DNA of 64,000 bases from Debaryomyces hansenii CBS767 (taxonomy: Eukaryota > Ascomycota > Pichiomycetes > Serinales > Debaryomycetaceae). Within the stretch, counting starts at the first letter, position 1. The number at the start of each line of letters is the position of its first letter. The stretch covers positions 1,178,001-1,242,000 of the forward strand of contig NC_006046.2 of the NCBI RefSeq assembly GCF_000006445.2, given 5' to 3'. Positions 4,454 through 9,961 of the stretch are shown one piece after another. The translations under genes and the position numbers were made by a program. Under the pieces are notes generated by a model. It worked only from the letters and a program-made list of their open reading frames with translations. It was not told the DNA's origin and searched no databases.

Positions 4454-6160
4454 ATGGCGGAAAAAAGACTATTCAAGGAATATAATCAACTCAAGAAAAC
4501 CCCGGCGCACGAAGCTAATCCACAGATTGTATCGCTTTTGCCAGTGGATATGTCTAATATTCTTGAATGGGAGGCAGTTGTGAGTAAACCAGACAAAAGC
4601 GGGAGTAGGTACTATTATAATGGGAAATGGAGACTTAATATTACGGTGCCTACCACGTATCCACTTACACCACCTAAAATAGAGTTTGATAAGTCCACAC
4701 CGATATGTCATCCCAACATTAATATAGATACGGGGGAAATCTGTTTAGACATATTAAAGCAAGAGGGATGGTCACCGGCATGGAACTTGCAGTACTTGGT
4801 GGTGGCGATATTGATGCTCATTGACGACCCAGAGCCGGATTCGCCGTTAAATATTGATCTGGCGAACTTATTCAGACAGGACAAGACTGCGTTTGAGAGC
4901 GTGGTGCAGTATTACATGTGGAAATACGATACATTTTGTACATCAGATGGGGGAGACAAAGACATTACGGGAGTGAAGGGGAAAGGGGTCGAAATTGTTG
5001 TAGAGTCAGACTTGGATATTGAGTCGATGGAAGTTTCCAATGATGCGAGCAAAGCTATCCATGAAATAAAAAACCAAGCACAAGAAATTGTCAACGAGAC
5101 CAATTCGGTATTAGTAGGATCACCTTCACATGATGAAAATCACACATTTTCTTACAGACTTACAAGGCCTATTGTACCTACCGACACCCAAAGTGACATT
5201 AAATCGAAATTGGATTTAAAGCTTAGTAAGATTGATTCTTTGAAGGACAGATTGAATATGGCCAAGTCGTTGGAGTCAACGGGCACTGACCAACATGTTC
5301 CAAACTACAAGGTGATCCATGACGTGGGAGAGGAAGTTACAAAACAGTTTATTGCGAAGGTTGATGAAATTGGCCATTCGTCTAGCTCATCTCAAGGATC
5401 AATTGAAGACCCACACGCGGATGATGATTTACAAGGTGTGAAACAAAAGGTAACTGCAAATGTTACCAAACAAGTAGAGATATTGTGTCTGAAATCGGTA
5501 TCGCCTGATACCACAGAATTTCAGGAGAGCATTAAAAATAATAATAATACCAATTATGGTAATGGAGAATTAGAAAGGGTTAGACAAAACTTCATGAGGC
5601 AAGTAGATGACAAAATAAAGAAACACGAGGAGTATATTAGAAGGCTGCAGTCTAATTCTCCAAGTCCAGCCAATCCGTTATATGAGACTCAAATGAACCA
5701 AACTTCGAAGCTGGAACCATATTTATCTAGCACCAGTAATAGGCCGAGAAGTCCGCTTGTTGAAACGTATAGTCAAGAAAAGCATACAATAAGCGAACCC
5801 GAAGGTGGCTTCATTGATAATTATGATATAGAAGGACACACTCATAAAAACGCTCCGATAGCCCAGCAACCAGAATCTGGCAACTTGCGATCTGAAACCC
5901 CACCACCTCGCAAATCAAGTTCGTCTGCTGGGCTGTCAGCAACTCCAAAGTCTGTGCTAAGCCAAGAACTGGATGCGGGTGTTGATACGCCCTTACAAAG
6001 AACCGACTCAGGATCATCGACAAGATCGTCGTTCTCCAGTTTGAAGAAGTCGCTCTCCAGAAAGAACTCGAAGTCAAAGACTAGTTCGCAGGACGATTCC
6101 GACATCTCAAAGAAAAAGAGGTTCCTGAATTTGCTCAAATCGAAGCCAGGTGACAGATAG
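4454..6160 (+). CDS. PEX4: Pex4-like peroxisomal ubiquitin-conjugating enzyme with a long C-terminal extension
   Basis: Residues 1 to about 160 form a complete E2 fold with HPN at 86-88 and the active-site Cys97 in GEICLDIL. The pattern DDPEPDSPLNIDLANLFR follows and closely resembles Pex4, the E2 that monoubiquitinates the import receptor Pex5 for recycling. Pex4 proteins are normally about 160-190 residues; this one is 568. The extra 400 residues are Ser/Asn/Lys-rich and probably disordered, with a predicted coiled coil near 375-400 (RQNFMRQVDDKIKKHEEYIR) and a basic Ser-rich end (LSRKNSKSK, then SKKKRFLNLLKSKPGDR). No membrane segment is seen. The E2 call is firm; the Pex4 name rests on core similarity. 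Its 3' end is duplicated at 9757-9961. Confidence 0.8.
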   Translation: MAEKRLFKEYNQLKKTPAHEANPQIVSLLPVDMSNILEWEAVVSKPDKSGSRYYYNGKWRLNITVPTTYPLTPPKIEFDKSTPICHPNINIDTGEICLDILKQEGWSPAWNLQYLVVAILMLIDDPEPDSPLNIDLANLFRQDKTAFESVVQYYMWKYDTFCTSDGGDKDITGVKGKGVEIVVESDLDIESMEVSNDASKAIHEIKNQAQEIVNETNSVLVGSPSHDENHTFSYRLTRPIVPTDTQSDIKSKLDLKLSKIDSLKDRLNMAKSLESTGTDQHVPNYKVIHDVGEEVTKQFIAKVDEIGHSSSSSQGSIEDPHADDDLQGVKQKVTANVTKQVEILCLKSVSPDTTEFQESIKNNNNTNYGNGELERVRQNFMRQVDDKIKKHEEYIRRLQSNSPSPANPLYETQMNQTSKLEPYLSSTSNRPRSPLVETYSQEKHTISEPEGGFIDNYDIEGHTHKNAPIAQQPESGNLRSETPPPRKSSSSAGLSATPKSVLSQELDAGVDTPLQRTDSGSSTRSSFSSLKKSLSRKNSKSKTSSQDDSDISKKKRFLNLLKSKPGDR

Positions 6161-6263
6161 GATTCTATTTATCTTCCCCTAGAGACAATACTAGAAACTT
6201 TCATAACGATTAACGAACTATTACATATCTATTTAATAAAATATATATTTAAATTTATGTAAT
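6043..6263 (+). repeat. PEX4 3' end, intact copy of a duplicated segment
   Basis: The last ~115 bp of PEX4 and the following ~103 bp are repeated in direct orientation at 9757-9961. After the stop codon the two copies differ at only about four positions in roughly 105 bp by hand alignment. The coding parts differ by small indels. Confidence 0.9.
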
Positions 6264-6369
6264 ATCCACGGATAACTTTGTGACTTTTGCTCCATATGTT
6301 ATCAAAACCCAGCCATGGTTTCTGTAATTCATTTTCACGTCAATATTAAGAACTCCTTATACTATCAAT

Positions 6370-7206
6370 ATGGAAGCCAATACTAAGTACAATTTAGTAG
6401 AAGAACATTATTCAGCGCATGTGAATAAGCTGACATCTGATAATACATTAATCGACTACAATCAAGAAGTCGCCGCATCGTTTGGATATTCGCTTGATGA
6501 CTTGAAAACAATCCCTACCGAATCCAACTTGGGAGTTTCCTGCGGAAACCCCCTTTCTCTTGCAAACTTGAAAGAAGGAGAAGTGGTAGTTGATTTAGGA
6601 TCGGGCGGTGGAATTGATGTATTTCTTGCTGCCAAAAAGGTCGGTCCACACGGAAAATCTATAGGCATAGACATGCTAAAAGAAATGATTAAAGTTGCCA
6701 GAACCAATGCAGAGAAGGGAGGCTATACGAATGTCGAATTTATTGAAGCACGTATAACTGATATCCCACTTAAAGAGGAGACTGCTGATGTAGTTATTTC
6801 CAATTGCGTGTTAAACTTGGTCCCTGACGACGAAAAGCCAACAACTTTTAAAGAAATATATAGGTTATTAAAGTCGGGTGGAAGAGTTGCTATATCAGAC
6901 CTTTTATCAGTTAGAGAATTACCAGATACAATTAAGAATAACCTAGCGTTTTACGTCGGATGTGTCTCTGGAGCAAGAAGTGTCGGCGAGTACGAGAAAT
7001 GGCTTAAGGAAGCAGGGTTTCTGCGTGTCGTGATAGTTAACACGAATAAAGATCTTAATGTTTACAAAGAAGGGGCATTGATGTCGGATTGTGCACAAAA
7101 AACGTCATCTAAGGATGGATCAGATGTCATGAACAAGGACGAGATCAAGGATGTTAACTTCAACGACTATATTGGTTCATATCAAATATATGCCCTTAAG
7201 GATTAG
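6370..7206 (+). CDS. arsM: Arsenite methyltransferase (ArsM/AS3MT family)
   Basis: A 278-residue SAM-dependent methyltransferase that would convert As(III) to mono- and dimethylated arsenicals. The SAM-binding motif DLGSGGGID lies at residues 75-83. The three As(III)-binding cysteines align as C58 (GVSCGNP), C146 (ISNCVLNLVPD) and C198 (VGCVSGA), corresponding to C61, C156 and C206 of human AS3MT. The extra N-terminal cysteine of animal enzymes is missing. The GVSCGNP/DLGSG pattern is of the bacterial and fungal type. A further Cys lies at 241. It sits tail-to-tail with ACR3, and ARR2 is next, so the context is arsenic detoxification. ArsM is not part of the S. cerevisiae ARR cluster, and acquisition by transfer from bacteria to fungi is possible. 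Confidence 0.93.
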   Translation: MEANTKYNLVEEHYSAHVNKLTSDNTLIDYNQEVAASFGYSLDDLKTIPTESNLGVSCGNPLSLANLKEGEVVVDLGSGGGIDVFLAAKKVGPHGKSIGIDMLKEMIKVARTNAEKGGYTNVEFIEARITDIPLKEETADVVISNCVLNLVPDDEKPTTFKEIYRLLKSGGRVAISDLLSVRELPDTIKNNLAFYVGCVSGARSVGEYEKWLKEAGFLRVVIVNTNKDLNVYKEGALMSDCAQKTSSKDGSDVMNKDEIKDVNFNDYIGSYQIYALKD

Positions 7207-7402
7207 TTTGGCAATTGACTTTAATAGATTGACTATATACTGGTAAATATTATATAATATGTAACTATCTTATTTACCTGACCAAACTGAAATGCAATCT
7301 TAAATACATGCCTAGGGAACATTGGCCTGTACAAATGGCTAAACGAAATTGTTACAAAATATGACATAGATTATAAGTAAAATTTATATAATACCAAAAT
7401 AA

Positions 7403-8674
7403 CTAATTTAATTCAATAGCTGAAGTATCACTATCTACCTCGACCACTTGTCCCGCCTCTTCATCAACATCTGACCATAAAAATTTAATTTTAAAATATT
7501 TAGCAACAAAACATAATACCAATAAAATTGGGACCTCTAGTAAAGGACCAAATGTAGCTGCTATGGATTCTTTACTTCCGGAGCCATACAATGAGATTGC
7601 TATTGCAAGACTTAATTCAAAATTATTCGACGCAGCAGTAAATGTCTGAGTGATAGTCTCAGTATAACTCGCTGAACAATTTGTTACCCACCTACCTGAA
7701 ACATTTGGAATTTGTTTTTCGCAACCACATAACAATTCAGTCTCTTCATCAGCGGCGATTTCTCCCCCTTTTCTAGGAGGAATGCGCCCAAGGAACCATC
7801 TTAAAAAGAAAAATGTGCCGAACCATGTTATCATAAAGTAGACAGTCAATGGAACAAAGCAACGCAACCCAGATCCTATATCACGAATAAAGTCGTTCCC
7901 GGTCTCTATAAAAATTACTATTATTGTGTATAATAAACCTATCAATGCCCAAGGACCAATGAAAGGAAGTATCTTTGAATCAAACGTTTTTATTCCAACG
8001 GTGAATCTAGCTGTAAGTCTGATCAAAAAACCAACCGCTAATGGGACACCTAAAAAGAATGCAACACTCTGTGCAACCAACAGATATGTGACACCTGCTC
8101 CAGCACCTTGTGCCTTATCGTAATCACCGGTTATCACGTAACAGAAAAATATTTGATACGGTGCATAAAGCACAATCTGAAGTAAACTGTTAATAAGCAC
8201 AATAACTGCACATAATGAGTTATCACCATCAGATATTTCATTCCAAACCAACACCATAGCAATACATCTCGCCAACCCAATCATGATAATTCCTGTTCTG
8301 TACTCGTCTAGGTCAAATAATGTAAGCCACGCAAGACCAAACATCAAAAACGGACATATAATCCAATTTATCACCAACGATATTAATATCGATCTTAAAT
8401 ATTTTTTCAGATTGAAAAAACTGAAAAAGTTTTCCCATTCAACTTTACACAACGGAGGTATCATCATGACTATAAGACCAACGGCCAACGGAACTGAAAC
8501 ACCAACCACCTTAGCTCCATCGAATGCTTCTCGACTGGAAGGTACGTACACCGACAATAATATTCCCAAGATCATGGCTAAAATAATCCAAAGTGGTAAT
8601 AACTTGTCGACCAAAGAAAGATCATCGAAAACTCGACGTAAGTCGCTAGACATAACTTTCTTACTGCAAACCAT
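7403..8674 (-). CDS. ACR3: Arsenite efflux permease Acr3/Arr3
   Basis: A 423-residue bile/arsenite/riboflavin transporter superfamily member with about ten hydrophobic segments. It exports As(III), and possibly Sb(III), at the plasma membrane. Diagnostic features are LPLWIILAMILGILL in TM1, CPFLMFGLAWL, the conserved Cys in GLARCIAMVLVWNE (C137) and the conserved Glu in SNNFELSLAIAI (E353). A Cys-containing cytosolic loop lies before the last helices, as in fungal Acr3. The frame is open further upstream, but that first codon is TTG. ATG codons at 8674 and 8653 are both possible. It is divergent from ARR2 across 173 bp and convergent with arsM. Confidence 0.95.
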   Translation of the reverse strand: MVCSKKVMSSDLRRVFDDLSLVDKLLPLWIILAMILGILLSVYVPSSREAFDGAKVVGVSVPLAVGLIVMMIPPLCKVEWENFFSFFNLKKYLRSILISLVINWIICPFLMFGLAWLTLFDLDEYRTGIIMIGLARCIAMVLVWNEISDGDNSLCAVIVLINSLLQIVLYAPYQIFFCYVITGDYDKAQGAGAGVTYLLVAQSVAFFLGVPLAVGFLIRLTARFTVGIKTFDSKILPFIGPWALIGLLYTIIVIFIETGNDFIRDIGSGLRCFVPLTVYFMITWFGTFFFLRWFLGRIPPRKGGEIAADEETELLCGCEKQIPNVSGRWVTNCSASYTETITQTFTAASNNFELSLAIAISLYGSGSKESIAATFGPLLEVPILLVLCFVAKYFKIKFLWSDVDEEAGQVVEVDSDTSAIELN

Positions 8675-8847
8675 GGTAAACTTCCAACTGTATTTCAATA
8701 AACACTATTATACAAAAGGCTAACTAAATTTTGTATTCTTATACGAGACCAAAATATTTTTAATTTGTTACCTAATAAAGCGAAAATTTTCGCCCACGTG
8801 GGGTAAATATTTCGTAGTACTATATAAGTAAGTAGTTTCTCAGAGAG
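8675..8847. promoter_or_regulatory. Bidirectional ACR3/ARR2 promoter with abutting palindromes
   Basis: A 173-bp divergent promoter. It contains a perfect 14-bp palindrome GCGAAAATTTTCGC at 8780-8793 that shares its last base with a perfect 10-bp palindrome CCCACGTGGG (E-box CACGTG) at 8793-8802. A TATA-like TATATAAG at 8821-8828 is only 20 bp before the first ARR2 ATG. The S. cerevisiae Arr1 (Yap8) 13-bp site was not found. Confidence 0.65.
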
Positions 8848-9318
8848 ATGATTTCAGCAGGACCAAAGAATATGTCTGGATTAGAATCAAACATACTGGT
8901 AAAGGATTGGTTAGAACTTTACCCAGAGCCCCAATCCACGGCCTCTCGATTGTCTGCCGATGAAGTTTTACAATTGTTGTCGGCCGGAAAATCTTCAACC
9001 ATTCTTGATTTGAGAAATGACCGTGCACCAGGATTTATTCGCGAGTCAGTTAATGTTCCTGCCACTTCTATCTCTGGATATTCTAACATAAAGGATCAGG
9101 TAATTGATAAGATATATGCGGCCAATCCAAATCTAAACTACATAATTGTTCATTGTAATAGTTCAAAGAATAGAGCCACGAAAGTGGCAGGTTGGATTCA
9201 AGATTATATTAACGACCAAAAGTCTGAAAATTTAAAGGTTGCCGTATTGAACGAAGGAATTACAGGTTGGTTAGAGAGACCAGAGCCATATAGCACCTTC
9301 GTAGAAAAGTATCCTTAA
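8848..9318 (+). CDS. ARR2: Arsenate reductase, Arr2/Cdc25 rhodanese-fold type
   Basis: A 156-residue rhodanese-like protein that reduces arsenate to arsenite with glutathione/glutaredoxin, feeding the exporter and the methyltransferase. The catalytic loop is the phosphatase-like HCX5R: HCNSSKNR with C103 and R109. It is flanked by the rhodanese strands TILDLRNDRAPGFI and AVLNEGITGW. Length is close to S. cerevisiae Arr2 (about 130) plus a short N-terminal extension. An in-frame ATG at 8872 (Met9) may be the real start, because a TATA-like element lies only 20 bp before 8848. A Cdc25-like phosphatase role (as in Ibp1-type proteins) is possible but less likely next to ACR3. Confidence 0.9.
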   Translation: MISAGPKNMSGLESNILVKDWLELYPEPQSTASRLSADEVLQLLSAGKSSTILDLRNDRAPGFIRESVNVPATSISGYSNIKDQVIDKIYAANPNLNYIIVHCNSSKNRATKVAGWIQDYINDQKSENLKVAVLNEGITGWLERPEPYSTFVEKYP

Positions 9319-9756
9319 GTGCTTGGATTTTGGGAACGCCTATTTCGAAAATAATGCATATATAACGAATAGAGTTGATGTAGGGACTTGTAATGCGAGT
9401 TCAATGTAATTCACCAACGGTAGTATTTCGAGTCTAAATGAGATTACACTAACTACGCGGTAGGCTAACAGAAATAGTATCGAAAATAAAATGAAACGAC
9501 GGCTACATATACCACATGTAGGATCACTCAAGTATTTTCAATATACGTTAACCAGCCTATTGTCAATAAAGCTCTTCGTTCCTTTGGTATTTCATTTGAC
9601 TAAAGATACACAGGCCAAGTGGCGTAATGTAGCCACAGACCAAGCACGTCTGATTGGAAGTCACCCATTCTGATATCAACTCAAGCCAGGAATTAACTTA
9701 GCATGTATAGACAGCCCCTTTGTACATAAAGCTGGTTCTAAGTGCTCTGCCAAATC
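9319..9756. other. Gap between ARR2 and the PEX4 relic; possible decayed membrane-protein frame
   Basis: There is no convincing intact gene here. The minus strand has a 63-codon hydrophobic frame (9340-9531) without an ATG, ended by stops on both sides, which could be a fragment of a lost membrane protein. The plus strand has an unrelated 60-codon ATG frame (9491-9673). Neither is recognised. Confidence 0.4.
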
Positions 9757-9961
9757 GTGGAAGAGATCGTTCTCGAGAAAGAATTCAAAGTAGCAGCGAA
9801 ATCTCAAAGAGAAAGAGGTTCCTGAATTTGCTCAAATCGAAGCCGAGTGACAGATAGGTTTCTATTTATCTTCCCCCTAGAGACAATACTAGAAACTTTC
9901 ATAACGATTAACGAACTATTACATATCCATTTAATAAAATATATATTTAAATTATGTAATA
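9757..9961 (+). pseudogene. Truncated, frameshifted copy of the PEX4 3' end
   Basis: A direct repeat of 6043-6263. It retains SFSRKNSK, then an in-frame TAG at 9791-9793. In a shifted frame it continues ISKRKRFLNLLKSKPSDR to a TAG at 9855-9857 (compare ISKKKRFLNLLKSKPGDR in PEX4). About 105 bp after the stop is nearly identical to the PEX4 3' flank. No start, E2 core or other upstream PEX4 sequence is present, so it cannot encode a protein. Confidence 0.9.

Follow-up and report, generated by a model that had tools for sequence, protein, structure and literature searches.

An arsenic-related gene block lies downstream of an intact PEX4-like gene in Debaryomyces hansenii CBS767, within a stretch of 64,000 nucleotides (C4:1178001-1242000, hereafter the window) of a 12.18-Mb genome in 8 contigs (Table 1). 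The block comprises arsM, ACR3 and ARR2-like reading frames, all three intact under code 12 in the list of open reading frames. The adjacency of these three genes had been proposed in a sequence-only reading of the same DNA, and their identities are now borne out by family scores and motifs, least firmly for ARR2. ACR3 runs opposite to its two neighbors, diverging from ARR2 and converging on arsM, so the genes do not form a co-directional array. For each gene, the codon score, GC3 and GC fall within 1 s.d. of a background of 23 mechanically chosen open reading frames from the window. Such ordinary host codon usage makes a recent bacterial arrival unlikely, and a recent arrival of the block was rejected on the grounds of composition.

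Table 1. Features of the arsenic-related block and its flanks, in window positions.
Feature	Position	Strand	Remarks
arsM, arsenite S-adenosylmethionine methyltransferase, fungal type	6370-7206	+	278 aa
ACR3/ARR3 arsenite efflux permease	7403-8674	-	423 aa
ARR2/ACR2-type probable arsenate reductase (rhodanese fold, HCX5R)	8872-9318, probably	+	148 aa; in-frame ATG upstream at 8848
ACR3/ARR2 divergent promoter, 173 bp	8675-8847 (or 8675-8871 with an ARR2 start at 8872)		
PEX4-like ubiquitin-conjugating enzyme gene, intact left neighbor, 3' end duplicated	4454-6160	+	568 aa
Direct repeat, left copy: last ~60 codons of the PEX4-like gene and 3'UTR	5975-6264	+	well-conserved part 6100-6264
Direct repeat, right copy: broken remnant of the PEX4-like 3' end	9701-9961	+	well-conserved part 9797-9961

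The ArsM protein scored 272.2 bits against the NCBIfam arsenite methyltransferase model PRK11873, above its cut-off of 263. The cysteines C58, C146 and C198 and the motif DLGSGGGID, named in the sequence-only reading, were located in the protein. These cysteines are present in 20 of 20 aligned relatives, are kept in 118 (with 2 gaps), 120 and 119, respectively, of the best 120 of 7486 homologs, and align with the algal enzyme structures 4kw7 and 4fr0; the catalytic cysteines of CmArsM are C72, C174 and C224. Algal and animal ArsM/AS3MT enzymes carry a fourth, N-terminal cysteine. No cysteine precedes C58 in the window protein, nor in 19 of the 20 aligned relatives, which marks this absence as a trait of the group and the fourth cysteine as not family-defining. 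The predicted structure has a mean pLDDT of 83.7. In a Foldseek search with this model, the best E-values belonged to solved ArsM structures, with TM-scores (by query length) of 0.51-0.63 that are no higher than those for other methyltransferases, such as TleD at 0.65.

The arsM gene is one uninterrupted frame with two CTG codons, at codons 21 and 218. Among the best 120 of 7486 homologs, the corresponding columns hold leucine in 12 and 14 rows and serine in 21 and 18 rows; the leucine counts take in the yeast rows, which were translated by the standard code. This pattern suggests that arsM is settled in a CUG-Ser genome. A second arsM was considered and rejected: the genome holds 19 methyltransferase-domain matches, and among the 8 that were compared, the window's own included, the 7 other proteins gave either no match or a partial one whose identity over more than 100 residues never exceeded 31%.

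The permease scored 375.2 bits against the TIGR00832 equivalog model (cut-off 282.8), using a query that began one codon 5' of the ATG, and the ARCIAMV and SNNFELS motifs read earlier from the sequence are found in the protein. In a tree of 45 of the 120 listed homologs plus one piece, the window ACR3 clusters with rows from Priceomyces and other Debaryomyces (98/98). This grouping identifies it as the lineage's own type and rules out a foreign ACR3. One Debaryomyces tyrocola ACR3 row is only 69% identical to the window protein and is listed on a different contig from that species' ArsM; it forms a long branch within the same 8-row clade. A second ACR3, truncated and decayed with three stops, was found on a different contig (C3:75829-76560) and is identical to the window gene at 668 of 807 aligned DNA positions. 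Close to it lies an intact 258-aa frame, presumably a short-chain dehydrogenase to judge by its motifs.

The ARR2-type gene is a probable arsenate reductase, on the strength of its sequence and predicted fold. The 148-aa relatives begin at its second ATG (8872), so the upstream start is probably 8 codons too early. The protein scored 34.8 bits against the Pfam rhodanese model PF00581 (cut-off 22.2) and matched no NCBIfam model. The HCX5R loop noted in the sequence-only reading is present as HCNSSKNR and is kept in 10 of 10 relatives among the matches listed, the farthest named of which is Saccharomycopsis crataegensis at 51%. When a profile built from 8 relatives was searched against the PDB, the Leishmania major Sb(V)/As(V) reductase 2j6p ranked first with a weak score (E 8e-6), followed by armadillo-repeat constructs at 1e-4; a single-sequence structure search returned an armadillo-repeat construct only and missed 2j6p. 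The predicted structure (mean pLDDT 88.9) has its top TM-score by query length, among the 50 matches listed, to the L. major As-Sb reductase (0.65) and its best E-value to the MOCS3 rhodanese, in a fold common to many rhodaneses. No further ARR2 copies were found in the genome search.

The origin of arsM was examined through its relatives. Among the best 120 of 7486 homologs, many without a species name, the named budding-yeast rows come from D. tyrocola (93%), D. fabryi (87%) and Priceomyces carsonii (78%). Filamentous and mushroom fungi at approximately 45-57%, along with one bacterial MAG, make up the remaining named rows. The D. fabryi protein is already labeled an arsenite methyltransferase in UniRef. 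The P. carsonii model is short of approximately 105 N-terminal residues, among them the first catalytic cysteine, which may reflect decay or misannotation; accordingly, arsM may be dispensable there. A quick tree combined 79 of the 120 listed homologs with 80 of 80 prokaryotic loci, omitting 41 homologs, many of them Penicillium and Aspergillus kin of retained rows. It placed the yeasts beside mixed Pezizomycetes, Chaetothyriales and Basidiomycota, a placing that is not strong. A careful tree of 76 of these 159 rows resolved the 8 yeast rows as a single clade (100/100) within a fungal clade (98/85). The phylogeny suggested by the sequence-only reading groups the protein among fungal ArsMs. A direct bacterial origin is rejected, as the yeast rows lie inside the fungal clade and are nested among bacteria in neither tree. 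Among bacterial rows, the nearest in the careful tree belong mainly to Planctomycetota and Acidobacteriota, consistent with the planctomycete origin proposed in the available text of Chen et al. 2017 (PMC5552862).

Whether the yeasts acquired arsM from another fungus is a narrower question. The earlier description of the gene as being of bacterial or fungal type and possibly acquired holds for the fungal kind; acquisition from another fungus is possible, and on this the tree is undecided. The nearest neighbors of the yeast clade, with weak support (81/61), are the Pezizomycetes Wilcoxina and Trichophaea. With groups chosen after inspection of the first tree, AU tests did not reject Pezizomycotina as one clade excluding the yeasts (p 0.353) or yeasts branching ahead of the other fungi (p 0.377). 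An ancestral Ascomycota arsM, lost in most budding yeasts, kept in the Debaryomyces-Priceomyces lineage and later brought beside ACR3 and ARR2 by rearrangement, would accord with the first of these AU results, with Pezizomycetes as the nearest fungal rows and with the ordinary composition of the gene. This history would require many losses, as only three budding-yeast species appear in the named rows of the best 120 of 7486, and we consider it possible but on balance improbable. The patchy species listing favors transfer from another fungus, of which the tree gives no proof.

The cluster appears to extend beyond D. hansenii. In D. fabryi, the consecutive tags AC631_05174, 05175 and 05176 are ArsM, ACR3 and ARR2, and tags 6252 and 6253 of P. 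carsonii are ArsM and ACR3. The longest contig listed for the D. fabryi ACR3 row differs from that of the ArsM and ARR2 rows, so the neighborhood in that species is read from tag numbers alone. The divergence of D. fabryi and D. hansenii is put at approximately 21 million years (41 minus 20) in the available text of PMC6563132, and if both species inherited the cluster, this is its minimum age.

The surroundings of the block bear on how it came to lie there. The PEX4-like protein has an E2 domain at residues 5-154 and a C-terminal tail of approximately 400 residues beyond it. When residues 1-172 were compared with solved structures, the best matches included PEROXIN-4, with Pex4 entries named E2-21 kDa ranked above and below it. 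On either side of the block lies one copy of a direct repeat, not mentioned in the sequence-only reading, whose well-conserved parts are identical at 158 of 166 positions. The left copy remains attached to the intact gene. The right copy matches PEX4-like residues 508-568 in two frames (E 5e-7 and 0.011, protein comparison), and this split identifies it as a broken remnant. Identity between the copies is 101/103 in the 3'UTR and 57/61 in the last coding stretch, falling further upstream to 30/37 and to 32/56 with gaps; the upstream similarity exceeded that of all 1000 mononucleotide shuffles. No third copy of the repeat or the right flank was found in the genome search.

From sequence, this duplicated 3' end looks like the footprint of an old insertion, which would be the cause of the repeat. 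Most simply, the incoming block would have brought a new PEX4-like 3' end that took the place of the original. The steep identity gradient suggests long decay accompanied by late gene conversion in the 3'UTR, or else constraint at that end. The same steep upstream decay of the right copy could be expected if a tandem or template-switch event had duplicated the PEX4-like 3' end independently of the block's arrival, and the list of open reading frames holds no mobile-element gene between the copies. The copies nevertheless bracket exactly the three-gene block, and the left one is continuous with an intact gene, so we give independent duplication a minor share of the probability. A more ambitious form of the insertion reading, which we think rather unlikely, is a portable yeast resistance cassette: arsM-ACR3-ARR2 and a PEX4-like 3' end, borne on one DNA segment that may have been circular, would have integrated through a single crossover at this end, so that the gene stayed intact and its former end was left over. 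Recombination of one repeat with the other could excise such a cassette, whose ArsM would give a methylarsenite product or signal absent from ordinary ARR clusters. The insertion-like footprint is new in that it is unreported among the matches listed in the open literature searched.

Regulation offers a lead only. Genome-wide, 7 bZIP (Arr1-type) matches were found and none lies in the window, in agreement with the earlier statement that no Arr1-like regulator is visible there. The target motif of Arr1 is TGATTAATAATCAA. The exact TGATTAATAATCAA is absent throughout the window, and exact Arr1 and Yap motifs do not occur at 6200-9400. The divergent promoter of ACR3 and ARR2 contains a CCCACGTGGG palindrome at 8793-8802, its sole occurrence in the window; the palindrome resembles Pho4/Cbf1 sites. 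A first-order model gives a chance of approximately 0.0015 for CACGTGGG on either strand in a 173-bp stretch, for a motif picked post hoc. The available text of PMC4324303 reports that arsenic responses of Candida albicans are mediated by Pho4. The palindrome may be a candidate regulatory site.

Reduction by Arr2 followed by export through Acr3 is the standard reduce-and-export route. Considered as a whole, the locus is probably a chromosomal Debaryomyces arsenic-resistance cluster, an inserted block with a fungal-type arsM. In this cluster, Arr2 would reduce arsenate to arsenite, Acr3 would export arsenite, and ArsM would methylate the arsenite left in the cell with S-adenosylmethionine as the donor. 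These putative enzyme activities follow family membership, and detoxification would be the main role. A lineage-type ACR3 would have been joined by the fungal-type arsM, and an insertion event would have set the block downstream of the PEX4-like gene, duplicating the 3' end of that gene.

The fate of the methylated product allows other roles to be weighed. No ArsH match was found in the genome, in a search whose control passed the family threshold for 1 of 14 genomes and which remote members could escape; methylarsenite would therefore need further methylation, loss, other oxidation or use. S. cerevisiae is reported to methylate arsenite via Mtq2, and methylarsenite to elicit distinct protective responses there, in the available text of PMC9041338; arsenite methylation is likewise stated in that of PMC10616229, where the enzyme is not named. 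Methylation is thus not new to budding yeast, and what is new is a dedicated ArsM inside the cluster. These reports make it reasonable to ask whether ArsM chiefly produces a methylarsenite signal that tunes protective responses, and is not chiefly a detoxifier. The analogy with S. cerevisiae and the lack of an ArsH match speak for such a role, which we regard as unlikely. Deployment of the product against competitors would draw on the toxicity of trivalent methylarsenicals; the available text of PMC11370035 ascribes an antibiotic effect to the efflux of these compounds by ArsP. The same text reports that no arsP was found in fungi, and the cluster has no methylarsenite exporter; we therefore hold competition to be very improbable, with detoxification or signaling at least as likely.

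Comparison with known systems places the block among variants of familiar arrangements. The description of the S. cerevisiae cluster as ARR1-ARR2-ARR3 in the sequence-only reading agrees with the available text of PMC7653285. That cluster likewise has an Arr2-type reductase adjoining an Acr3 permease, whereas the Debaryomyces window lacks a bZIP match and adds arsM. The S. cerevisiae cluster is under subtelomeric silencing according to the available text of PMC9266342, whereas the Debaryomyces block lies approximately 1.18 Mb into a contig that extends past 1.46 Mb. The fungal ArsMs of group IV in Chen et al. 2017 (PMC5552862) belong to the same clade, with approximately 45-58% identity among the matches listed and the same three cysteines; the available text reports introns in eukaryotic arsM genes except that of Hydra. 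In contrast, the Debaryomyces gene resides in a CUG-Ser budding yeast, is uninterrupted and adjoins ACR3 and ARR2. Bacterial ars operons with arsM likewise group adjacent genes for efflux, reduction and methylation, but the Debaryomyces genes are divergent or convergent with separate promoters, and their reductase has a rhodanese/Cdc25 fold. Methylation by S. cerevisiae Mtq2 (PMC9041338, available text) would likewise yield methylarsenite in a budding yeast, but through a different methyltransferase, the Debaryomyces enzyme being a dedicated ArsM-family member within an arsenic cluster.

Among the matches listed in the open literature searched, no description of arsM in Debaryomyces or any budding yeast was found in the text available. 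The yeast arsenic literature surveyed, as far as its accessible text extends, covers reduction, export and vacuolar storage; the sole methylation it describes is that by Mtq2. The arsM-ACR3-ARR2 block unites known families in a new combination and is a real variant of the yeast ARR cluster. With a dedicated methyltransferase beside a reductase and a pump, methylation, volatilization or methylarsenite signaling would be open to testing by single gene deletions, and the flanking repeat offers a checkable model for how a small block may enter a yeast chromosome without breaking the neighboring gene.
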